In this document: piece by piece, positions 12,785-31,162 of the stretch
Layout: every line of letters starts with the position of its first letter
How positions within the stretch are numbered: position 1 is the stretch's first letter
Assembly (NCBI GenBank): GCA_009695275.1
Contig: SIBF01000008.1
Span: 1-48,810, forward strand
Origin: Pedosphaera sp.
GTDB lineage: Bacteria > Verrucomicrobiota > Verrucomicrobiia > Limisphaerales > F1-12-MAGs170
Direction: 5' to 3'
Length of the DNA: 48,810 bases
Program-made: the position numbers and the translations under genes
The notes under the pieces: model-generated
Told to the model about the DNA's origin: nothing
Database searches by the model: none
The model's input: the letters and a program-made list of their open reading frames with translations, nothing else

Positions 12785-14323
12785 ATGAATATGAGAATGA
12801 GAAAAGGAATCAGCCAGGTGGCCACGACAATTTGCGCGGTGTTAATGACCGGGGCGGCCTTCGCCGCCGAACCCTGAGCGAAACCGGGCGGCCCCAAGCC
12901 GGTCGATACGTCCGTCCGGGGTGAAGAAAACGCGGTGCTGACGCAAGCGCCGAATGTTCCACCTCCCATCAAGCGCACCTACGCGACCAAAGTCATTGTA
13001 AAGCTCGAAGTGAAAGAGGTCGTGAAGAAGCTCTCCGATGGTGTGGAGTATAATTTCTGGACCTTTGGCGGTGATGTGCCCGGAAGTTTCATCCGCATTC
13101 GCGAGGGCGATCAGGTGGAGTTCCATTTGAACAATCATCCGACAAGCAAGATGCCGCACAACATTGACCTGCACGCGGTCACAGGGCCAGGCGGCGGGGC
13201 GGCCTCGTCGTTCACCGCGCCGGGCCATTCGTCGCAGTTTTCCTTCAAGGCACTGAACCCCGGCCTCTATGTCTATCATTGCGCGACGGCGCCGGTCGGG
13301 ATGCACGTGGCCAACGGCATGTACGGCTTGATTCTCGTCGAGCCCAAGGAAGGGCTGCCGCCAGTGAACAAAGAGTACTACATCATGCAGGGCGACTTTT
13401 ATACGGCGGGCAAGTTTGGCGAGGAAGGCTTGCAGATGTTCGACCAGAACAAGGCGGTGGATGAGCGCCCAACTTACGTGGTCTTCAACGGCTCTGTCGG
13501 CTCGCTCGTCGGCGACAAGGCCATCACCGCGAATGTCGGCGAAACGGTGCGGCTCTTCATCGGCAACGGAGGACCGAACCTGGTCTCCTCGTTTCACGTC
13601 ATTGGCGAAATTTTTGACAACGTCTATGTCGAAGGTGGAACCGTGGCGGCGCAGCACAACGTTCAGACCACCATGGTGCCGGCGGGCGGCTCGGTTATTG
13701 TCGATTTCAAGGTCGAGGTGCCGGGAACTTACATCCTCGTGGACCACTCGCTCTTCCGCGCCTTCAACAAGGGCGCGCTGGGGATGTTGAAGGTGAGCGG
13801 ACCGGAGAATCTGATCGCCTACTCGGGCAAGGAGGTTGACGCCGTTTATCTGGGCCGTCAGGCCGAGGCGGGCTCGGAAGCCGAGAAACAGGTCGCGGCG
13901 CTGCAGGCGCAAATGCGGGAAGCCATCAAGTCCGATCCGAAGATTTCCGGGCTGACCAAGGAAATCCAGATCGCCAAAGGCAAAGGCGTGTTCATGCAAA
14001 CGTGCTTTGTGTGTCATCAAGTGAATGGCGAAGGCATCCCCGGACAAATCCCGCCGCTGGCGAATTCAGACTACCTGATGGCGGACAAGGAACGTTCCAT
14101 CCGGGGCGTTCTCTCGGGCCAGTCGGGCGAGATGATGGTGAATGGAAAGAAATACAACGGCGTGATGATCCCCTTGAATTACCTGCCCGACGAGGATGTG
14201 GCCAACGTGCTGACCTATGTGCGCAACAGCTTCGGCAATTCTGGTGACGGGGTGAAGGTGGAAGAAGTCCGCCGGCTTCGCGGGGAGACACCTGCGCCAG
14301 CAGCAGCCAGTAAATTCGAGTAA
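12785..14323 (+). CDS. nirK: copper-containing nitrite reductase with C-terminal cytochrome c domain; in-frame TGA at 12875-12877 separates signal peptide from mature protein
   Basis: Cu ligand motifs [60 protein letters not shown] heme motif; upstream in-frame [50 protein letters not shown]. Confidence 0.92.
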
Positions 14324-14333
14324 AGGAAGGATC

Positions 14334-15158
14334 ATGAAACGTCAGGCGACTGTTCAGGTTGCCGTAGCGCTCCTCTGGGCGCTGGCGTTTCCATGTCTTG
14401 TTCAAGGTCAACAGCGGCCGGCCGGCAAAACGCCGGAGGGAATGGTTCTGGTGCCGGCCGGCCGCTACACTCCGCTATTCCGCGCGGAGAAAGATCCGAA
14501 GGACTTTCCGGTGTCCGCTTTTTTCCTCGACGTGTTGCCGGTCACGAACGGGGATTATCTCATGTTCATTAGAGCCAACCCGAAGTGGCGTCGCTCAACA
14601 ATGAAGCGGCTGTTCGCCGACGGGGATTATCTGCAAAGTTGGGCCGGGGATATGGAGCCCGGCCCCAAAGCCGCCAACAACGCGCCGGTGACTCATCTTT
14701 CGTGGTTCGCCGCCAAGGCCTATTGCGCGTGGAAGGGCAAGCGGCTGCCGACTACCGCCGAGTGGGAGTACGCGGCTGCAGCAGGACTGACCCGCGCGGA
14801 TGGAGAAAATGATCCGGAGTTCGTGCGCCAGGTCCGCTCTTGGTATGCCACGCCCGCGCCAGAGACGCTCCCAGAGGTTGGCCGCAGCCGCACAAACTTC
14901 TTCGGCGTCCACGATCTGCATGGCCTCACATGGGAATGGGCCGCCGATTTCAACACCGCCATGGTCACAGGCGACGCACGCGGGGACACGGGACTGGAGA
15001 GGCAATTATTCTGTGGGAGCGGTTCCGAAGGCGCGAAAGACACGGGGAATTTTCCCGCCTTCATGCGCTACGGTTTTCGCAGCAGCCTCAAGGCAAGCTA
15101 CACTGTCCACAATCTGGGTTTTCGTGGCGCGAGGAGCGTGGACGAACAAGGCAAATGA
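14334..15158 (+). CDS. nirV: NirV-like SUMF1/formylglycine-generating-enzyme-family protein
   Basis: Signal peptide, then GMVLVPAGRYTP...PVTNGDYLMF...PVTHLSWFAAKAYCAWKGKRLPTTAEWEYAA; directly follows nirK. Confidence 0.8.
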   Translation: MKRQATVQVAVALLWALAFPCLVQGQQRPAGKTPEGMVLVPAGRYTPLFRAEKDPKDFPVSAFFLDVLPVTNGDYLMFIRANPKWRRSTMKRLFADGDYLQSWAGDMEPGPKAANNAPVTHLSWFAAKAYCAWKGKRLPTTAEWEYAAAAGLTRADGENDPEFVRQVRSWYATPAPETLPEVGRSRTNFFGVHDLHGLTWEWAADFNTAMVTGDARGDTGLERQLFCGSGSEGAKDTGNFPAFMRYGFRSSLKASYTVHNLGFRGARSVDEQGK

Positions 15159-15256
15159 AACTTCCTCCTCGCAGTAGTCATTCCGTGAACCGCCTGACCG
15201 GGGTGCCAGCGATTCCTGTTTCCGATGGAAGTCCGTCGCGTCCGTCAGGGAGGCTG

Positions 15257-15883
15257 ATGAGAAACCTACAGCCATTTGAAACTGCGATTGCCGCGTTGGC
15301 CTGCGCGATGGTCTTCATCGGCTGCTCCACTGGCGGCACATCCAGGACACGACCGTGCTGCGCGAAGGAATTGACCGTCGCGACTCCCCTCTCAGATCGC
15401 TCGCTCTACCAGATCGACTCGTCCTGGACGACAGACGCAGGCACCACTCTGAAGCTCCCATCGCTGGCTGGCCGTCCCCAAGTAGTCACGATGTTCTTTG
15501 CGCATTGCGAGTACGCCTGCCCGGTGCTCGTTCACGACATGAAGAAGGTGGAAGCCGCGCTGCCCGCGAGTCTGCGAACCAACGTCGGCTTTGTGCTCAT
15601 ATCGTTCGACAGCGAACGTGACACGCCCGCCGCGCTCACGACATATCGGAAGAACCACGAGTTGCCGCCGAACTGGACTTTGATTCGTGGCGCACCCGAT
15701 GACGTTCTCGAACTGGCGGCGCTGCTGGGCGTGAAATTCAAGAAAGATGCCCGGGGACAGTTCGCCCACTCCAACATCCTGACGCTGCTCAATGCCGGAG
15801 GCGAAGTGACGCATCAACAAGTCGGGCTCAATCAATCACCCGAGGAAACCGTAAAGCAAATCCGCCAGCTTCCAGCCCCATGA
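15257..15883 (+). CDS. SCO1/SenC-family lipoprotein
   Basis: Lipobox-like VFIGCS; MFFAHCEYACPVLVHDM (CxxxC) and FAHSNILTLLN. Confidence 0.85.
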   Translation: MRNLQPFETAIAALACAMVFIGCSTGGTSRTRPCCAKELTVATPLSDRSLYQIDSSWTTDAGTTLKLPSLAGRPQVVTMFFAHCEYACPVLVHDMKKVEAALPASLRTNVGFVLISFDSERDTPAALTTYRKNHELPPNWTLIRGAPDDVLELAALLGVKFKKDARGQFAHSNILTLLNAGGEVTHQQVGLNQSPEETVKQIRQLPAP

Positions 15884-16529: not shown

Positions 16530-16553
16530 AGCGATGCGAGCCGGCTGCCTCTA

Positions 16554-18215
16554 ATGTCCGTCGCAGAAAGTCAATCTGTGATAACAAGTCGCCAGCAAAA
16601 TCGGAACAGCCTCGGAGCAGAAAACCGCCGCAATGTTGCGCTTACCCGGCTGCATGACGCGGCTCCCGTCGAGCGGCAGTTGCGAACGCTTTCGGTTGAC
16701 TACTCCCTGACGCGACGGACGCTGGGACTGGCCATAGGAAGCCTGCTCGTTGCTGGATGCTTCTCACTGCTGCTGGTGATCGGACGGATGCCGGTGTTCT
16801 CCGAATGGGTAAGCGATCCGCAGTTCTTCAAACGTTGCCTGGTGCTGCACGTCGATCTGGCGCTGATCGTGTGGTTCTTCGCCTTCGCTGCGGCGCTGTA
16901 TTCGTTGCTGCCGGGAGATCAGGCCAGCCACTCCACTTATCGAAACGGCTTTGTGGCGGCGTGCGGTGGTGTTCTCTTGATGGTGGCTGGAACGTTGATT
17001 CCACGCACGGCGCCGGTGCTGGCGAATTATGTGCCTGTGATCGACAATTCGATTTACGTTGCGGGAGTGGCGTTGTTCTTCGGCGGGTTGGTGTTTTGCT
17101 TCTTCAACGGACGGCTGCTTGTCCAACCGCGCAAGACGTCCAGACGCGAGACGACGTCCGCCTGGGAACCGTTTCGCGTCACTGCGGACGCGGCGCTGGC
17201 ATTGAAAACCACGGCGCTGGCGTACCTCGTGGCGGTGACAACTTTCCTGGTGTCGTGGCTGGTAACACCGCACGAGCTGGAAACCAAAGCCTACTACGAA
17301 CTCGTCTTCTGGGGCGGCGGTCACGTGCTGCAAGTGGCCAACGTCGCGGCCATGCTGGCGGTGTGGCTGTTGTTGCTCTCGTCAATGCTAAAGGCAACCG
17401 TGCTCTCGCCTGGGGCGGCACGTGTGCTGTTCGCGGTTTTGCTGGCGCCTCACATGGTTGCGCCGCTGCTGACGATGAACGGCACGCCCGCGCCGCTCTA
17501 CCGCCTTGGCTTCACGCGGCTGATGCAGTTTGGCATCGCGACGGTGGTCATAATCGTCCTGGTGATTTGCCTGCGCCAGCTTTCGCAGGCATGGAAGCGC
17601 GGAGTCATCGGCAGGTCGGACCTGGGTGACGCACGTTTCGTCGGTTTCGCGGCGAGCGCGGCGCTCACGATCACGGGCTTCCTGATGGGTTCCGCCATCC
17701 GCAATTCCAACACCATGATTCCGGGGCACTATCACGCATCCATCGGCGCGGTAACGGTCGCATACATGGCGGTGACCTACGTATTGCTCAAGCCACTTGG
17801 CTTCCCGCTGCCGGGTTTGCGCCTGCCAAGGCTGATTCCCTGGCAGCTTTACCTGTTTGGTGCCGGGCAGGTGATTTTCGCCATCGGTTTTCTTTTCGGC
17901 GGATTTCACGGCTTGAGCCGGAAGGCCTACGGCGCCGAGCAACATATTCGTTCACTGGGCGAATTGATCGGCATTGGTGTTATGGGCGCGGGCGGATTGA
18001 TCGCGGTGGCAGGCGGGTTGTTGTTTTTGCTGCTGATGATGTTCGCAGGACGCTCTCGCGTTTATGAAACATTTTTCAAGTTGAGAACCTGTTTGAACCA
18101 TCGTGGCAGCCGACGACAGGAAACTCCGGTAAAATCCGAATTTCGAATTCCGAATTCCGAAATGGAAGCGAGCCTCCTTATCCCGGCTGCCGCGCAAAAA
18201 AGGACCCCCGTATGA
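16554..18215 (+). CDS. divergent heme-copper oxidase/NOR subunit I-like membrane protein
   Basis: Multi-TM; LVLHVDLALIVWFF, FWGGGHVLQVANV, LAPHMVAPLL, IPGHYHASIGAVTVAYMAV histidine motifs. Confidence 0.75.
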   Translation: MSVAESQSVITSRQQNRNSLGAENRRNVALTRLHDAAPVERQLRTLSVDYSLTRRTLGLAIGSLLVAGCFSLLLVIGRMPVFSEWVSDPQFFKRCLVLHVDLALIVWFFAFAAALYSLLPGDQASHSTYRNGFVAACGGVLLMVAGTLIPRTAPVLANYVPVIDNSIYVAGVALFFGGLVFCFFNGRLLVQPRKTSRRETTSAWEPFRVTADAALALKTTALAYLVAVTTFLVSWLVTPHELETKAYYELVFWGGGHVLQVANVAAMLAVWLLLLSSMLKATVLSPGAARVLFAVLLAPHMVAPLLTMNGTPAPLYRLGFTRLMQFGIATVVIIVLVICLRQLSQAWKRGVIGRSDLGDARFVGFAASAALTITGFLMGSAIRNSNTMIPGHYHASIGAVTVAYMAVTYVLLKPLGFPLPGLRLPRLIPWQLYLFGAGQVIFAIGFLFGGFHGLSRKAYGAEQHIRSLGELIGIGVMGAGGLIAVAGGLLFLLLMMFAGRSRVYETFFKLRTCLNHRGSRRQETPVKSEFRIPNSEMEASLLIPAAAQKRTPV

Positions 18216-18361
18216 ATGAACCGAACACAAAGCATCCGTTGCAAAAACTGATGGACAACCACTGGCTGCTGCTGGCGTTGGGCATCCTGATTCCTTTCCT
18301 TTCCTACACCGTGTGGGGTTGGATCGAGTTGCTGATGGTCAAGCCAGCCACGCTCCCTTGA
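18212..18361 (+). CDS. 49-aa single-TM protein
   Basis: MNEPNTKHPLQKLMDNHWLLLALGILIPFLSYTVWGWIELLMVKPATLP*; 4-nt overlap with the preceding gene; below the ORF-track size cutoff. Confidence 0.7.
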   Translation: MNEPNTKHPLQKLMDNHWLLLALGILIPFLSYTVWGWIELLMVKPATLP

Positions 18362-18382
18362 TCAAGATTGAGAGGCAAATCT

Positions 18383-18938
18383 ATGAACCAAAGAACAAAC
18401 TTCCAGCAGCTTTCAATGTCCAGCGCCGGGATGGTTCAAGGCACCCACAGGCAACGAGCGCACCTGGATCGGCCTGGCGCTGCTCTGGTGCATGGTCATG
18501 TCTCTGATGATGCCTTACTGGCACTTCAAGGGAAAACAGAACAGCTCCGGCGAGGCTTATTCGGTGAAGCCCGCGGACTTCATCAAGCGCACGGAAAAAT
18601 TCATTCTCGCCAATACCGGCACCGAATCCCTGCTCGAAGAGGGACTCTCTCCGGTCGTGGCGGCGCCGCCGGGCGAAATCTACCTTGTCGCCAAGCAATT
18701 CTTATGGTTCCCCACCCTCAAGTTGCGCGCAGGCGAAACCTACCGCTTGCACGTCTCAGCGGCGGATTTTCAGCACGGCTTTTCGTTGCAGCCCATGAAT
18801 ATGAACTTCCAGGTCGTGCCTGGTTACGACCACGTCCTCACCATCAAACCGCAGGCACCGGGAACCTATCCGATCGTCTGCAACGAATTCTGTGGCATCG
18901 GCCATCAGAACATGATCGGAAAACTCATCGTTGAATAA
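18383..18938 (+). CDS. CuA-containing subunit II of NO reductase/oxidase-type complex; 5' end appears frameshifted
   Basis: CuA motif CNEFCGIGHQNM with ADFQHGFSL; TM GNERTWIGLALLWCMVMSLMMPYW spans two frames. Confidence 0.85.
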
Positions 18939-18950
18939 GGAGAAAATCTC

Positions 18951-20678
18951 ATGAGCGACAACAAAAATGGAAAACGGATTTGCGCGACCACCGGCCTCCC
19001 CATCTGCCTGGACGCGGAGTTCTTCGTCAAATGCAACGCCGTGCTCGCCGTCGTCTTCCTGCTCATCGGGGGCATCGGCGCGCTCCTGCTGGCGTTGACC
19101 CGTTGGCAGACGGTGCATCTGCTGCCCGTCGATTGGTTCTATCGCATCCTCACCTTGCACGGGTTGAACATGCTGATCTTCTGGATCCTCTTCTTCGAAG
19201 TGGCGATTCTCTACTTCGTTGCCACTTCGCTGCTCAACGTCAAGCTGGCCTCGGTCAAGACCGCCTGGGTATCACTCATCATGATGTTTGTCGGCGCGGT
19301 GATGGTGGACGTGACGATTCTCGTGGGCCAGGCGGACGTGATGATGACCTCCTACCTGCCGCTGCTGGCGCATCCGGCGTTTTACCTCGGCATCATCCTC
19401 GTGGCGGTCGGCACGCTGATCGGCGTCATCCTCTACTTCGCCACGCTGCACAAGGCGAAGAAGGAAAAAACCTATCAAGGTTCGGTGCCGCTCGTTGTCT
19501 TCGGCGCGACTGCCGCTGCGATCATCGCCGTGGTGACACTGCTGCATGGCGCAATTGTCATGATCCCGACGTTCCTTCATTCGATGGGCTGGATCGCACA
19601 GCCCGACCCGCTGTGGTATCGCATGACATGGTGGGGCCTGGGGCACATGTCGCAGCAGGTGAATGTTTGCGCGATGGTTTCCGTGTGGTACCTGCTGGGT
19701 GCGCTCACCACCGGCGCGAAACCGCTGAACGAGACGGTTTGCCGCGGCGCTTTTCTGCTCTATATCTTTTTCATCAACCTGGCTTCCGCGCATCATCTGC
19801 TCGTCGATCCCGCCATCAGTGCCGGATGGAAAATCTGGAACACATCCTACGCGATGTATCTCGCCGTGCTCGCATCGATGATCCATGGCTTCACCGTGCC
19901 AGCCTCGGTGGAAGTAGCCATGCGGCAGCAGGGATACGTGAAAGGCTTGTTCGGCTGGCTCACCGCTGCGCCATGGAAAAACCCCGGCTTCTCCGCGTTC
20001 TTCCTGTCCCTTGTGATCTTCGGATTTGGCGGCGGCATCACGGGCGTCACTCTGGGCACCCAGCAGATCAATATCATCGCTCATAATACACTGCGCATTC
20101 CCGGCCATTTCCATGTGACCGTCGTGGGCGGAACAACGCTGGCCTTCATGGGACTGGCTTTCTACGTGGTACCTCTCTTGTTTCAGCGCGAGTACATCTT
20201 CAAACCGCTCGCCCGACTTCAGCCTTACCTCTTCGGCATCGGCATCACTGTCATGGCGATGGGAATGTCCTTCGCGGGTTCCATGGGCGTAAGCCGTCGG
20301 AGCTGGGACATCGAGGCAGCAGGATCGATCTACGGTCCGGCAGCGCATTTGTTCCTGGCAGCGGTCGGCATCGGCGGTGTCCTGGCGTTTCTAGGCCTGC
20401 TACTTTTCATACTGTTGACAGTGGGCACGTTGCTGTTCGGACGTTCCATAGTCGGCAAGCCTATGGAGAGTTGGGGCACGCCCAAGCCGCTGGCAGTTGG
20501 TGAACCGGAACACACGCCCATCGGCCTGCCGACTGGCGCCGGATCCCCCGCACTGGCGATGGCCGAGGCTCACCCGACACAAGGCACGATGGTGCTGGCG
20601 TTGGTGTTCCTGTTGAGTTTCGCGGTCTATTACTTCGCCAATTGGAAGGCACTGGCCGATGCATGGCCGGTGAGGTGA
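18951..20678 (+). CDS. heme-copper oxidase superfamily subunit I, B-type-like; probable non-canonical NO reductase catalytic subunit
   Basis: LTLHGLNMLIFW, WWGLGHMSQQVNV, SAHHLLVDP, HNTLRIPGHFHVTVVGGTTLAFMGL; oxidase cross-link Tyr position is Gln. Confidence 0.85.
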   Translation: MSDNKNGKRICATTGLPICLDAEFFVKCNAVLAVVFLLIGGIGALLLALTRWQTVHLLPVDWFYRILTLHGLNMLIFWILFFEVAILYFVATSLLNVKLASVKTAWVSLIMMFVGAVMVDVTILVGQADVMMTSYLPLLAHPAFYLGIILVAVGTLIGVILYFATLHKAKKEKTYQGSVPLVVFGATAAAIIAVVTLLHGAIVMIPTFLHSMGWIAQPDPLWYRMTWWGLGHMSQQVNVCAMVSVWYLLGALTTGAKPLNETVCRGAFLLYIFFINLASAHHLLVDPAISAGWKIWNTSYAMYLAVLASMIHGFTVPASVEVAMRQQGYVKGLFGWLTAAPWKNPGFSAFFLSLVIFGFGGGITGVTLGTQQINIIAHNTLRIPGHFHVTVVGGTTLAFMGLAFYVVPLLFQREYIFKPLARLQPYLFGIGITVMAMGMSFAGSMGVSRRSWDIEAAGSIYGPAAHLFLAAVGIGGVLAFLGLLLFILLTVGTLLFGRSIVGKPMESWGTPKPLAVGEPEHTPIGLPTGAGSPALAMAEAHPTQGTMVLALVFLLSFAVYYFANWKALADAWPVR

Positions 20679-20705
20679 GTGGGAAAGGACCTCGTCTCGC
20701 CCAAA

Positions 20706-21665
20706 ATGAACACTTGCTCAACATCGCTCACGCCCACCGGTCGCCTGGTCGCGCGGATGACGGGCTTCCTCTCCGGCGCAAGTTTTCCAGCCTTCGCGCT
20801 TTGCACGCTGGTGTTCTACCAATTCTTCATCACTGTGATGGCGTTCGCGCCCCCAGCCCACGGCGTGTGGGGCGATTTCCTGGAAGACTTCCGAATGCGC
20901 TGCTTCACATACGATCCGAAGGGGGGCTGGATGCAGCTCAGTTCCGTCTGGGTCATGCTCGCCGAACCGTTGCCCCTCCAAGCCATCCTGTTTTTCATCT
21001 GGCGAACGCCGCTGCAAGAGTTGTGGCAGACGCGCCGCCGCGCTCTCGCGCCGTTGGCGGGCGCCGCGCTGGCGCTTGTCGGTGCGATTGCGCTGAGCCT
21101 GCTCGGTTTGGGCCGCACGCAGGCGAAGCAGACCGAACTCCCCTTCCCTGCGGATCGCCTGCGCTCCGAACTGCCGATGCCGTCCTTCAGCCTCATCAAC
21201 CAGGACGGCCAGCCCGTCGCACTCTCGGATTTCAAAGGGCGCGTCGTGCTCGTCACAGCGGTTTATTCCACCTGCACGACCACCTGCCCGATGATGCTGA
21301 CTAAGATTCGCACAGTTCTGGATCAGTTGTCTCCCGCCGAACGCAGTGACATGGCTGTGGTGGCTTTCTCTCTCAATCCAGAGGCCGACACGGGCGAACT
21401 GCGCAGCATCACCTCGAAGATCTACGGAATGAAGGCGCCGCAGTTTCATTTCGTGAACGGCGTCCCCGCGGACGTGAACGCGGTGCTCGACAAACTGAAT
21501 GTCGCCCGCTCACGTGATGAAAAGTCCGGGCAGATTCAGCACTCGAACCTGTTCTTCCTCCTTGATCGGGAAGGCCGCATCGCCTATCGCCTCTCCATGA
21601 GCCAGACCGAGCAATCGTGGCTGATCTCAGCTCTGCGTGTATTGCTGACGGAAAAATCCTTGTGA
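20706..21665 (+). CDS. SCO1/SenC-domain protein with N-terminal multi-TM region
   Basis: FSLINQDGQPVALSDFKGRVVLVTAVYSTCTTTCPMMLTKI (CxxxC) and QIQHSNLFFLLDREGR; hydrophobic N-terminal ~150 aa. Confidence 0.8.
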   Translation: MNTCSTSLTPTGRLVARMTGFLSGASFPAFALCTLVFYQFFITVMAFAPPAHGVWGDFLEDFRMRCFTYDPKGGWMQLSSVWVMLAEPLPLQAILFFIWRTPLQELWQTRRRALAPLAGAALALVGAIALSLLGLGRTQAKQTELPFPADRLRSELPMPSFSLINQDGQPVALSDFKGRVVLVTAVYSTCTTTCPMMLTKIRTVLDQLSPAERSDMAVVAFSLNPEADTGELRSITSKIYGMKAPQFHFVNGVPADVNAVLDKLNVARSRDEKSGQIQHSNLFFLLDREGRIAYRLSMSQTEQSWLISALRVLLTEKSL

Positions 21666-21673
21666 ACCATTCC

Positions 21674-23856
21674 ATGGACCCACCCCCTGGTGCGGCGGAA
21701 TTTCAGGCTCAAGGGGGACGGGCAATGCCTTCCGCGCAGTCCGGGCATCAGTCTGCCAGCCTCGGACATCCTCTCGACGTCGAACCCGCGCCGGGTCAAG
21801 AGAAACCAGCTCCTCCCGCAACGCACGCTGAAAACTTCCTGCGTCGGCTGGATGACGGCTGGCACTACCTCGACCGGCTGATCCAGAACTTCATTCCACC
21901 CGCGCTCAATCCCTTCGGACAGCTCGGCGCAATTGCCAACACCTGTCTCCTCATCGCGGTTCTGACAGGCATTGTGCTGCTTTACTGGTACACGCCGAGC
22001 GTCCATCACGCCTACGAATCTTTGGAGACGATCCGGCGGTCCTCCTGGCTGGGACAACTCACACGCTCGCTGCACCGTTACAGCTCGGATGGTTGCCTGT
22101 TCTTCATTCTGCTCCATGCATTGCGGATCACTTTCCAGCGACGTTTCACCGGTCCGCGCTGGCTGGCCTGGACCACGGGCGTGCTGCTGTTGTCGTTGCT
22201 CTGGTTCATCGGCTGGACCGGCTATTGGCTCGTCTGGGACGTGCGTGCTCAACATGCAGCGCTCGGCACCGCGCGCTTCATCGATCGGTTGCCGATTTTC
22301 GCCGAGCCGCTCTCGCGTTCCTTCCTCACTGACCAAAGCGTCCACTCGCTCCTGTTTTTCCTGATTTTCTTTGTCCACATGCTGGCGCCATTGGCCATGG
22401 GCGTTGGAATCTGGATGCACCTCATGCGTGTCAACCGCTCGCGCTTTTTAGCTGGGCGCGTGATGACCCTGTGGATTCTCGGCTCGCTTTTGATCCTCTC
22501 CGTGCTTCTGCCCGCCCTCAGCGCCAGCCCCGCGCAGATGACCGTCAAAGCGCAAGAGTTCACCATCGACTGGTGGTATCTGTGGCCGTTCGCACTGACG
22601 GATCGACTGAGCGGCGGGGCGCTGTGGGCTTTCTTCCTGATCACTGGCACTACGGCCCTCACCGTGCCGTGGTGGATGGCGAAACGCCGTCGTGCTCCCG
22701 AATGGAAGGCGCAGGTCGATTTGCCGCGCTGCATGGGCTGCACCCTTTGCGCGCAGGACTGCCCCTTCAACGCCATCACCATGGTCGCGCGCGAGGATGG
22801 GCGGAAGTTCGCCGTGCAATCGTTCGTCAACCCGGCGCTGTGCGTCGGCTGCGGGATTTGCACCGGCTCGTGCGATTCACAGGCGATCAGCCAGCCCGCG
22901 TTCAACAGCCGTGCGATCGAGAAACCTCTGCTCGCATGGATCGAAGCGCGGAAGGCCCGGGGAGAACGTCCGTTCGTCGCGTTTTCGTGCTCGGAGTCCG
23001 CTGGCGCGCTGCTGGGCGCGGATGGGGAGGGAAATTCCACCGACTTGCCTGGCTACCGCGTTCAGTCCGTGCCGTGTGTGGGATGGGTCAGCGCGGTGAT
23101 GCTGGAGCGTGCTTTGCAGCGCGGCGCGGCGGGCGGGCTGGTGATCGGTTGTGGCGAAGGTGATTCCGTTTGCCGCGAAGGCATGAAGTGGTTCACCCAG
23201 CGCATGGAGGGACGGCGCGAACCGAAGTTTGATCCCGGCAAGGCGGACCCGACGCGCGTCCGCTTCGTGCAACTTGGCCGCACCAGCCGCGGTGACTTGC
23301 TGCGGGTCGCACGCAAGTTCCAGCAACAGCCCACAGCGTCAACCGCTCCACGCCCACGCAGACGGCCTCTGCAAATCGCCGCCGCTCTCGTGCTCGTTTT
23401 CGTGTTGAGCGCGGCGACGTTTGCTTTCAGTAACCTGCCGTACCGCACGCCTCATTCACCCGCGCCGGAACTGGTCGTGTCATTCAATCACCACGGGGCG
23501 ATTGTCGAATCGCGCAAGCTGACCAAGGAGGAACTGGCCAAGCGCCTCCGGCACATGCGCGCTCAAGTAAACGTCACTCGCGAGCGCCTGCCCGTGCGCC
23601 TGCGAGTGCAAGTGGACGGCCAGTCCGTGCTCGACCAATCCTACCAACCCACAGGCCTGTCTCATGACGGCCCGAGCATGGCCGTGGTGCGCCTGCCGGT
23701 GGCACCTCACCTGGTTCGCATCTGGTGCGCGTCGAACTCGCCGACACCGCCGACACCGAACGATGGACGCAGCAATGGAGCGAGGCGGTAAATTTTACGG
23801 AGAGTCGCGCGCGGGTCGTGTTGTTCGACACCGAGGCGGGTTTCTCGTTGCATTGA
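21674..23856 (+). CDS. cytochrome b (b6-like) / 2x[4Fe-4S] ferredoxin / MvhD-like / C-terminal TM-periplasmic fusion; probable frameshift near 23,705
   Basis: HRYSSDGCLFFILLH and HMLAPLAMGVGIWMH bis-His pairs; CMGCTLCAQDCP and CVGCGICTGSCD; PFVAFSCSESAGAL...SVPCVGWVSAVMLERALQRGAAGGLVIGCGEGDSVCREG. Confidence 0.8.
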
Positions 23857-27579: not shown

Positions 27580-27835
27580 CTGGTCGAGACGGTATTCTCC
27601 TCTGCCGCAAACGGACAATTGAAATCCTTTGGAGTCCTGATCATCGGATCGTGAAACCACGATGGAGATGGCAATGACTTGGACGAAGATCTCCGAAGAG
27701 CGTCGGAAAACCTTACAGATGGGCCGCAAAGATCGCGCAATTTCTCTCGCACACATGGCTTGAAACTCGCTACTTTTCAGAACCTTGCGAGGAGGTGCAG
27801 GCCATGAACCGTTTCGCGAAACAACCAGGCTGGAG

Positions 27836-30800
27836 ATGCTGACACAGTCTTTCATGACAACAACCAAGGGATTGGTGCCGCCGCTTGTTGAGCAAGCGCG
27901 GCACTGCTTCCAGAGAAAGTTCCGCCTCGCGCTGAACTTGGCGACACTGGTCTTGATTCTTGAATTACAGCAGGATTCGAAAGCTGCAGCCCCACCCCAG
28001 CCGACCTTGAACTTGGTCGACACCCTCAACAGCCGTCAGGCCTCGCTGGCGGCATTGGCGGCTCCGGGTGGTACGAGTGCCATCGACTACTTCACGCCGG
28101 AAGGTCCCGTCGGCACAACCGTTCTCATTAATTTGAATGTTGGTGGAGAAGTGAAATCTGTAAGGATTGGCAATCTCGATGCCGCCTTCACGATCTACGA
28201 AGTGCCACTTCGTCCAGCTCTCGTCGCAACCGTTCCGAAAGGAGCCACCACCGGATTGATCACCGTGGCAACAGACGAAGCTACTTACGTCTCGACGCAG
28301 CCGTTCAAAGTCACTTCCAAGCTCCCGGTAAATTGGCCAAGAATCTCCCTCATTCAGCCTTTCGAGGGTGCTGTAGGAACACAAGTTTTCATCGCCGGTT
28401 TGAATCTCAACTACGGCCCTGTCAACGTGAATTTCGGACAAGTTCCCGCAGCGGCAATCCGAGTTGGAAGCGGACTGGTGGTGACCGTGCCCGCCGAGGC
28501 GGTAACCGCGCCCATCGCTGTGACCACTTTCATTGGATCAGTCTCAAGTGTTACACCATTCCGCGTAACAACCGCCACCCAAAAGCCATTCCCGCCTTTG
28601 ATCGTAGATTTCTCACCGTCGCAAGTCGATCATTCCACCGGCTCCCAGTTTGCAATTGAGGGCGTTAACCTCACGGACGCTACTTCGGTGCGCCTCAATG
28701 GTCAGGAAGTTGAGTCGTTTACTGTCCTTGGTGACACTCTTATTTTGGCCACCCTCCCCGAGGGCTCAACTGAAGGCCTGGTAAGCGTCACAACGCCGAA
28801 TGGAAAAGGTACCAGCAACAAAATGCTTGAATTCGGGGCAAGTTTACCCGTCATCAGCAGTTTCTCGCCGTTGATGGGATCCCCCGGGAACAGTGTCTCG
28901 ATTTTCTTTTCAGAAGTAACCGAAGTTTCCTCAGTCCGCTTCAGCGGCGAGCTTGATGCTCAGGCCACGTTCCAAGGATTTCCGGCCGGCGTCACTGGCC
29001 GCGGCATTGTTGCAATTGTGCCAGCCGAGGCGGTCAATGGTCCGATAACCATCACAACAACTCGAGGCGAACTGATCACGCGAGAATCGTTTGCCGTGAA
29101 CAGGGGTGCTTGGGCATTGACGCCGCGCATCACGGAGATTTATCCCGAGAGCGCGCCACGCGGCGCGTCCGTCCTGATTCGCGGCAGTGCTCTCGTCGGA
29201 GTGATCGCCGGCGTGGACTTCGATGGGACAAGGGCCGATTTTCTTCCCGCTCCCGGCGGTGTGCAAGCAATCGTGCCGCTGAGTCTCGCCACGGGTTCCG
29301 TGGGAACGGTGAGTATCACAACGCTCCTGGGCAAGGCGACCGCCACGAACAGTTTTTTCGTTTCCAGCGAATCGTCACCCAACCAGGCTCCGCTGATCGA
29401 AAAAATTTCTCCTCAGGCGGGACTTGTCGGCACCGCAGTTGAAATCAAGGGCCGCAACCTGGTCGATGTTCAGAGTGTGAAAATCAACGGTATCGAAGCG
29501 CAGTTCACACAAGAGCTCGCTCCTTACGTGATCATCGCGACAGTGCCCGAGGGTGCAACCAGCGGACTGATCACAGTCGTCACTCCCAATGGTCTCGCAA
29601 CAAGCCCCGGACAGCTTCAGATCGGCGACGTCCACATCAGTTCCATCACTCCGATCACTGGAAGTGTACTAAGCGAACTTACAATCCTGGGTACCAGCCT
29701 CGACCAGGCCACAAAGGTAAGGATCGACAGCGTTGCAACAGCCTTCACCGTTGTCTCACCGAACAAAATCGTAGCCATCATACCGACCAATGCCGTAACC
29801 GGAATAGTGCGAGTCGCAACGCCACTGGGGGAGATCGGTGGGAATCTGCCTGTTTACACCGTCGTTCCAAGAATTGATTCATTCACTCCGATTTCAGGCT
29901 ACGAAGGAACGGAAGTGCATATCTTCGGAAGCGGTTTCACCGAACCGGATGCCCTGTTATTCGGCGAGATTTCGGAGGATTTCACCAGAATTAGCGCAAA
30001 TGAAATCAAGGCGAAAGTCCCGGCGAACTTTGGAGCGGGTCCGATCATCATCGCCTTCGGAGAGCAAGCCGCATTCAGTTCGACGCCTTTCACTCCTGCC
30101 GAACTGAAAGTGGTTTCGATGTCCCCGACCACTGGTCATGTCGGCGATGAGATCACACTTACCGGCACGGGAATGCAGAGCGCCACCGCCGTCGTCTTTG
30201 GAAAAAGACACGCGCCCGCCAAGGTAATCTCGGAACAGAAAATCACCGCCACAGTACCACCCGAGGCGACCAGCGGGGAAATCGGAGTAGTTTCCCCCAA
30301 CGCCACGTTCTTCGGCGATGGATTGGTTTTTGGCGTTCTACCCAAAATTATCGCGATCGAGCCTTCAGCAGGTACCGTTGGCTCAAACATTCACCTCCGC
30401 GGAACTGGCTTTGCCGATGCAATCCGCGTCGAGTTTAACGGTACACTGGCCGAATACTCGATTGAAGCTCCCGACCTAATCATCGCCACTGTTCCATTCG
30501 GGGCCATCACCGGGCCGATCCAAGTTTCCACTTCCGGAGGCCAAGCAAAGTTTCCCAAAGACTTTGAAGTCGCGCCAAGCGCTGATCTGGTGCTTTCGAT
30601 GTCAACCTCCAGGACCGTGGCATGGGTTGGCGATGCAATCGTGTATTCACTCGTTGTCACCAATGGGAGCCGGTTGACCGCAGCCTCGCTTCGAGTGGAC
30701 CACTTCATTACGGACGCAGCGAAGATCAATTCCACAACACTCAGTCAAGGCACATGGTCAATTGATGGAAACCTCTTGTCCTGCCAGCTCGGCGATCTCC

Positions 30801-31162
30801 TCGCAGGCGGAACTGTTTCGATCAAGGTTAGCACCACGCTCATCAAAGGCGAGTCCGTGATCAGCGCGGCCATCGTCAGTTCGGAGACACCCGATGAAAT
30901 TATTGAGAACAATTTTGTCACTTCATTTGTGGAGGCCGTTCAACCGCCCCAACTCTCCGCAAGACACCTGCCGGACGGCCATGTCGAGATCTCGTGGTCA
31001 TCGAGCGCCAAAGGATTCTTTCTGCAGATGAAAGAGGGTGCGGATTGGCCGGGTACCTGGGCGTTTCTAACCAAAAAATCCTCGCTACTTAGAGGGCGCT
31101 TCGTCGTGAACCTTCTACCCGCTGATCAGGTCCAGTTGTTCCGGCTGGTGATAGAGGACTAA
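27836..31162 (+). CDS. large IPT/TIG-repeat surface/secreted protein with C-terminal DUF11-like domain
   Basis: About 10 repeats of pattern 'I..I.P..G..G..V.I.G..L......V.......F.......I.A.VP..A..G.I.V.T..G'. Confidence 0.8.
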   Translation: MLTQSFMTTTKGLVPPLVEQARHCFQRKFRLALNLATLVLILELQQDSKAAAPPQPTLNLVDTLNSRQASLAALAAPGGTSAIDYFTPEGPVGTTVLINLNVGGEVKSVRIGNLDAAFTIYEVPLRPALVATVPKGATTGLITVATDEATYVSTQPFKVTSKLPVNWPRISLIQPFEGAVGTQVFIAGLNLNYGPVNVNFGQVPAAAIRVGSGLVVTVPAEAVTAPIAVTTFIGSVSSVTPFRVTTATQKPFPPLIVDFSPSQVDHSTGSQFAIEGVNLTDATSVRLNGQEVESFTVLGDTLILATLPEGSTEGLVSVTTPNGKGTSNKMLEFGASLPVISSFSPLMGSPGNSVSIFFSEVTEVSSVRFSGELDAQATFQGFPAGVTGRGIVAIVPAEAVNGPITITTTRGELITRESFAVNRGAWALTPRITEIYPESAPRGASVLIRGSALVGVIAGVDFDGTRADFLPAPGGVQAIVPLSLATGSVGTVSITTLLGKATATNSFFVSSESSPNQAPLIEKISPQAGLVGTAVEIKGRNLVDVQSVKINGIEAQFTQELAPYVIIATVPEGATSGLITVVTPNGLATSPGQLQIGDVHISSITPITGSVLSELTILGTSLDQATKVRIDSVATAFTVVSPNKIVAIIPTNAVTGIVRVATPLGEIGGNLPVYTVVPRIDSFTPISGYEGTEVHIFGSGFTEPDALLFGEISEDFTRISANEIKAKVPANFGAGPIIIAFGEQAAFSSTPFTPAELKVVSMSPTTGHVGDEITLTGTGMQSATAVVFGKRHAPAKVISEQKITATVPPEATSGEIGVVSPNATFFGDGLVFGVLPKIIAIEPSAGTVGSNIHLRGTGFADAIRVEFNGTLAEYSIEAPDLIIATVPFGAITGPIQVSTSGGQAKFPKDFEVAPSADLVLSMSTSRTVAWVGDAIVYSLVVTNGSRLTAASLRVDHFITDAAKINSTTLSQGTWSIDGNLLSCQLGDLLAGGTVSIKVSTTLIKGESVISAAIVSSETPDEIIENNFVTSFVEAVQPPQLSARHLPDGHVEISWSSSAKGFFLQMKEGADWPGTWAFLTKKSSLLRGRFVVNLLPADQVQLFRLVIED

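Follow-up and report, generated by a model that had tools for sequence, protein, structure and literature searches.

The presence of a fusion gene, here called FUS, tracks one clade of the NO reductase eNOR, and FUS lies beside this one eNOR group in at least seven phyla. Judged from its sequence, FUS looks like a dedicated redox helper of that clade. In the stretch of DNA analysed (the window, 48,810 nucleotides) it joins a cytochrome b module, two [4Fe-4S] ferredoxin motifs, an FlpD/MvhD-like domain of a kind otherwise at home in methanogen-type enzymes, a further transmembrane (TM) helix and a beta-sandwich in one polypeptide (Table 1), currently annotated as 'cytochrome b N-terminal domain-containing protein'. 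We propose, with a probability of about 0.4, that FUS acts as a transmembrane redox accessory for the maturation or re-activation of eNOR metal centres, in a manner analogous, and not homologous, to CcoG. None of the parts is new; provisionally, neither their fusion nor its link to a single eNOR clade was described in the literature searched, outside which the main eNOR survey lay.

Table 1. Features of the FUS locus, with positions in the window and residue numbers of the window protein
Feature	Positions	Strand	Basis and remarks
NirK copper nitrite reductase fused to cytochrome c domain (NO source)	12935..14323	+	TIGR02376 E=7e-107, Cytochrom_C
Second haem-copper-like subunit, degenerate CuB ligands	16551..18215	+	In 44/60 loci with enough upstream DNA
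CuA (COX2-like) subunit II, CxxxC-x3-H-x2-M motif	18393..18938	+	Domain search
eNOR-type haem-copper subunit I, GHMSQQ: Gln at Tyr position	18951..20678	+	Domain search, alignment
SCO1/SenC copper chaperone, N-terminal TM region, directly upstream of FUS	20679..21665	+	Pfam SCO1-SenC E=5e-23
FUS: cytochrome b, 2x[4Fe-4S], FlpD/MvhD, TM, beta-sandwich	21674..23791	+	ORF, Pfam, profile search, ortholog model
Cytochrome b module, six TM helices A-F, residues about 84-335	21923..22678	+	AF2 ortholog model (numbering shifted +47), Foldseek to bc1/b6 cytochrome b
Haem ligands H134 and H148, helix B	22073..22117	+	Invariant in 84/84 homologs
Haem ligands H235 and H249, helix D	22376..22420	+	Invariant in 84/84 homologs
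DWWY motif (D299), at place of PEWY (Qo-site motif of cytochrome b)	22568..22579	+	D invariant 84/84
Two [4Fe-4S] ferredoxin motifs, residues 347-405	22712..22888	+	Pfam Fer4; eight Cys invariant 84/84
FlpD/MvhD-like domain, residues 435-551	22976..23326	+	Pfam, profile search; Cys variable among relatives
Seventh TM helix, residues 564-586	23363..23431	+	AF2 model
C-terminal beta-sandwich, predicted periplasmic	23468..23856	+	Frame broken near 23710-23740; other-frame homology to 23853, stop at 23856

The first-pass annotation had carried FUS on to 23856, which is the stop of another frame; from its ATG at 21674 the ORF is uninterrupted as far as 23791 and encodes 705 amino acids as read. As the C-terminal 50 residues of a relative with 88% identity align to 23704-23853 in a frame different from that of the FUS ORF, the window copy is, by this alignment, frameshifted or mis-sequenced near its 3' end. 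The domain search suggested in that annotation matched Cytochrome_B (residues 71-254, E=8e-22), two Fer4 domains (347-405) and FlpD (435-551, E=1.1e-10), so that the CxxCxxCxxxCP and CxxCxxCxxxC ferredoxin motifs and the MvhD/FlpD-like segment noticed there were confirmed. A profile of 84 homologs matched cytochrome b6 (E=2e-38), the C-terminal ferredoxin region of HdrA (2e-17) and MvhD (5odc_D, 3.5e-12) in the PDB; one relative, L021, was left out of this alignment as having no in-frame FlpD-TM part, its assembly being possibly faulty. FlpD was matched at E<=1 in 13 of 15 FUS members, with the window protein above the Pfam cut-off. An AlphaFold2 model of the 88%-identical ortholog (pLDDT 95.3, pTM 0.91) reproduced the domain order, with six TM helices, an Fe-S domain, an FlpD fold, a seventh TM helix and a beta-sandwich, and the further TM helix and C-terminal non-cytoplasmic domain claimed for the same ORF were borne out.

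The fusion of these domains is not due to chance, since their order is kept in relatives. In many Pseudomonadota the C-terminal domain is a separate gene right behind a shorter protein, so in the window protein two partners have been fused into one. Along the tree there are about seven interchanges between the fused and the split form, truncated members being counted as split. The C-terminal domain resembles beta-sandwiches only in a generic way: among PDB folds nothing else matched significantly (best E 0.008), no Pfam family was assigned and a viral fold library gave no match. A hemerythrin gene adjoins or lies just downstream of this domain in a number of Pseudomonadota (L091, L093-L095, L097-L100, L103, L104, L108, L110, L111, L140), and a Rhodoferax MAG carries two adjacent FUS copies (L101:6975-11100), one of them divergent (31%). 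A near relative of the window protein (L033, 76% identity) comes from a record titled Akkermansia muciniphila, a title that is probably misassigned.

Two His pairs with 14-residue spacing had been taken to indicate a b6-type cytochrome. All four His, H134/H148 in HRYSSDGCLFFILLH and H235/H249 in HMLAPLAMGVGIWMH, are present in 84/84 homologs, together with all eight [4Fe-4S] Cys. In cytochrome b each haem is ligated by one His from each helix; the spaced pairs are therefore helix pairs and not haem pairs. The match to cytochrome b also stands, although the module is longer than b6, with helices E and F and a changed PEWY: Foldseek aligned the FUS model to bc1 cytochrome b over about 300 columns, helices E and F included, and to b6 over about 190. 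When the profile was aligned with a cytochrome b of the window genome that does carry PEWY, the invariant D299 fell on the PEWY Glu, a correspondence that combines the second segment of this one alignment, weak alone, with fold similarity. The Glu itself is lacking from FUS, which has Asp instead in 84/84 members. A GYxLxWD motif is present, its G, W and D invariant. The Asp at the PEWY Glu, the bc1-like fold with helices E-F and the GYxLxWD motif together make an outer-side quinone site in FUS likely, on the alignments and the model. No Rieske partner was recognised next to FUS, either in the window or in the annotated operon of Defluviimonas sp. SAOS-178_SWC, a culturable carrier that has this operon on a plasmid.

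The proteins encoded upstream of FUS are, in order, a degenerate haem-copper-like protein, CuA, eNOR and SCO. From its sequence, the protein encoded at 18951-20678 is an eNOR-type subunit I; the mark of eNOR, an enzyme that annotations often take for an oxygen reductase, is Gln in place of the active-site Tyr (PMC8756737), and Gln occupied the cross-linked Tyr position in 86/86 aligned relatives. The proposed link of FUS to NO reduction survived a search for homologs lying away from NO genes, with CuA and eNOR subunit I each in 58 of the 60 FUS loci that had enough upstream DNA. The two loci without eNOR are a solitary truncated copy (L085), which looks like a relic, and a Rokubacteria locus (L090) whose neighbours are haem d1/nir-like by eye. 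SCO was immediately 5' of FUS in 67 of 69 non-redundant loci. Several Pseudomonadota, and also Rokubacteria, carry a haem-O synthase gene between eNOR and SCO-FUS, above the TIGR01473 cut-off in five cases, and weaker homologs flank FUS loci in other phyla (21 of the 39 loci with both flanks).

Several further features of these loci were noted. The second haem-copper-like subunit (16551-18215) retains the haem-ligand His and a single CuB His, and the HH pair is missing. For the CuA frame (window 18330-18500), relatives match from 18393 and there is no ATG, GTG or TTG before about 18492, possibly through a sequence error or an unusual start. Within 12935-15883, NirK-cytochrome c, an FGE/SUMF1-like protein and another SCO are encoded one after the other, a trio that recurs near FUS in many Opitutae and at one Rhodothermales locus. 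Near a Rhodothermia FUS/eNOR operon (L139:1930-3783), truncated haemoglobin-like and DUF542-type NO-stress repair-like ORFs were seen by eye. Outside the operon, window 27785-31162 encodes a secreted-looking protein of 1125 amino acids with repeated IPT/TIG-like units.

FUS homologs were found in 13 of 385 genomes of the same class, and all 11 genomes of the class with eNOR also carry FUS. A GTDB species set gave 411 candidate loci. We retained 80, and the groups that appear in the record titles are Verrucomicrobia, Myxococcota, 'Deltaproteobacteria', Calditrichota, Rhodothermales/Balneolaceae/Bacteroidota, Planctomycetota, Rokubacteria and Proteobacteria. Within Rhodothermia, FUS is present in 11/11 genomes with the near eNOR clade and in 0/8 with the far clade. 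Five of six far-clade neighbourhoods hold CuA and eNOR (genes of the sixth were not resolved by gene picking), and in those five SCO, the second haem-copper subunit and FUS were not detected by similarity. FUS changes faster than eNOR (median p-distance 0.55 vs 0.35), which might fit a helper.

We infer the following cofactor loading, quinone binding and topology. Two haems b in the bc1-like bundle would join the outer Qo-like quinone site to two inner [4Fe-4S] clusters, and since this relay is invariant, electrons could cross the membrane through FUS, in a direction that the relay itself does not give. The FlpD domain may have been kept for docking, its own cluster being dispensable, and the C-terminal beta-sandwich would reach outside, perhaps meeting SCO or the CuA subunit. 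FUS might then supply or balance the electrons needed to build or re-activate the eNOR metal centres, reducing copper handled by SCO, much as CcoG does for cbb3 oxidase. Maturation factors are typically encoded after structural genes. CcoG, a cupric reductase, combines a TM bundle with two [4Fe-4S] clusters and a periplasmic Ig-like domain, and its gene lies just downstream of the cbb3 oxidase genes (PMC7558416). We favour maturation because FUS adjoins SCO, is often near haem-O synthase and, like CcoG, follows the structural genes. The counts given above for SCO, CuA and eNOR support this, as do the far clade of Rhodothermia, with neither SCO nor FUS adjoining, and the conservation of the haem His, the [4Fe-4S] Cys and the Asp at the PEWY Glu, but not of the FlpD Cys. 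Against it, the outer domain is not homologous to FixG_C and has no recognised conserved copper site (only M, R, D, G and a partly conserved H), most carrier genomes also encode a CcoG, and a cytochrome b with a quinone site exceeds what CcoG needs.

A close rival, which we regard as possible, is that FUS is an electron-entry unit. It would take electrons from a cytosolic reductant or the quinol pool and hand them on, either to quinone by way of the [4Fe-4S] clusters and haems or, at the outer face, to the CuA of eNOR. The near-obligate 1:1 link with one eNOR clade, the complete two-haem, two-cluster relay and the conserved Qo-like motif would all fit this, and FUS and eNOR distances correlate (Spearman 0.86), although co-inheritance in one operon alone gives the same. 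However, no redox cofactor site was recognised in the outer domain, eNOR already has a CuA that cytochrome c or cupredoxins could serve, a separate cytochrome b of the bc type (L002) is encoded in the window genome, and the other eNOR clade does without FUS. The MvhD domain had initially been considered the [2Fe-2S] entry site, a suggestion that the distribution of its Cys and of HdrA does not support. Among the 84 members four are present in 53, three in 21 and two or fewer in 10 (none in 6), the fourth being displaced in many. A supported clade of seven (L027, L029, L030, L074, L081, L083, L084) has lost most or all of them, six having none of the four, and retains all [4Fe-4S] Cys.

It is improbable, in our estimate, that FUS represents a new kind of respiratory module, in which the Qo-bearing cytochrome b and its fused cytosolic Fe-S/MvhD-derived arm form an integral eNOR subunit and tie the redox chemistry of the cytosol to the oxidation of quinol and the reduction of NO. 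Bifurcation or confurcation appears more doubtful still: a Q-cycle-like cytochrome b would send one electron from an outer quinol to eNOR/CuA and one inward to [4Fe-4S]/FlpD, as might be imagined for helices A-F and an acidic Qo-motif residue fused to an HdrA/MvhD-type cassette, but the operon has no Rieske protein, the FlpD Cys are degenerate and HdrA is absent from most carriers. That FUS is the functional MvhD partner of a heterodisulfide-reductase-like complex is very hard to credit, despite the FlpD match and four MvhD-like Cys in Pseudomonadota and Rokubacteria members, because these Cys are lost in one clade and an HdrA2 model found a strong match in 3 of 27 carrier genomes examined and none in 24; no hdr genes were recognised in the FUS neighbourhoods inspected. 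A working Hdr feeder is thus rejected for most carriers, and for Verrucomicrobiota members this reading is, on sequence grounds, largely refuted.

If one eNOR clade needs FUS, the gene marks that clade in genomes and indicates which genes to co-express for study of the enzyme. A further, testable question would then be how an N2O-producing enzyme makes use of a bc1-like quinone site and a cytosolic Fe-S arm.

FUS can be compared with several known systems. It shares helices A-D with four haem His, helices E-F and GYxLxWD with the cytochrome b of bc1 and b6f complexes, but differs in the Asp for the PEWY Glu, the fused Fe-S and FlpD domains and an operon with neither Rieske protein nor cytochrome c1. 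The best NCBIfam matches were to ExtP-type cytochrome b, cytochrome b6 and HdrA2, all under curated cut-offs; ExtP, which like ExtQ belongs to the selenite/tellurite operons, ranks first, with FUS scoring under the cut-offs for both ExtP and PetB. The Defluviimonas member is matched by ExtQ as well. By sequence profile, two [4Fe-4S] motifs followed by FlpD recall HdrA2 (HdrA C-terminal ferredoxin plus MvhD/FlpD); unlike HdrA2, FUS has a cytochrome b anchor and no HdrA FAD core. With CcoG/FixG it has in common a TM bundle, two cytosolic [4Fe-4S] clusters, one TM helix and an outer beta-sandwich, in a gene placed after a haem-copper enzyme and with SCO. That FUS is itself a CcoG is rejected by sequence: its bundle is a haem cytochrome b, FlpD is present, the Fe-S part resembles CcoG only as a ferredoxin, and the unrelated outer domain gave no Pfam match to FixG_C and an hhalign probability of 0.3%. 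The neighbouring subunit I with its active-site Gln and the CuA subunit II are as in eNOR, and FUS, SCO and the second haem-copper-like subunit accompany one eNOR clade only.
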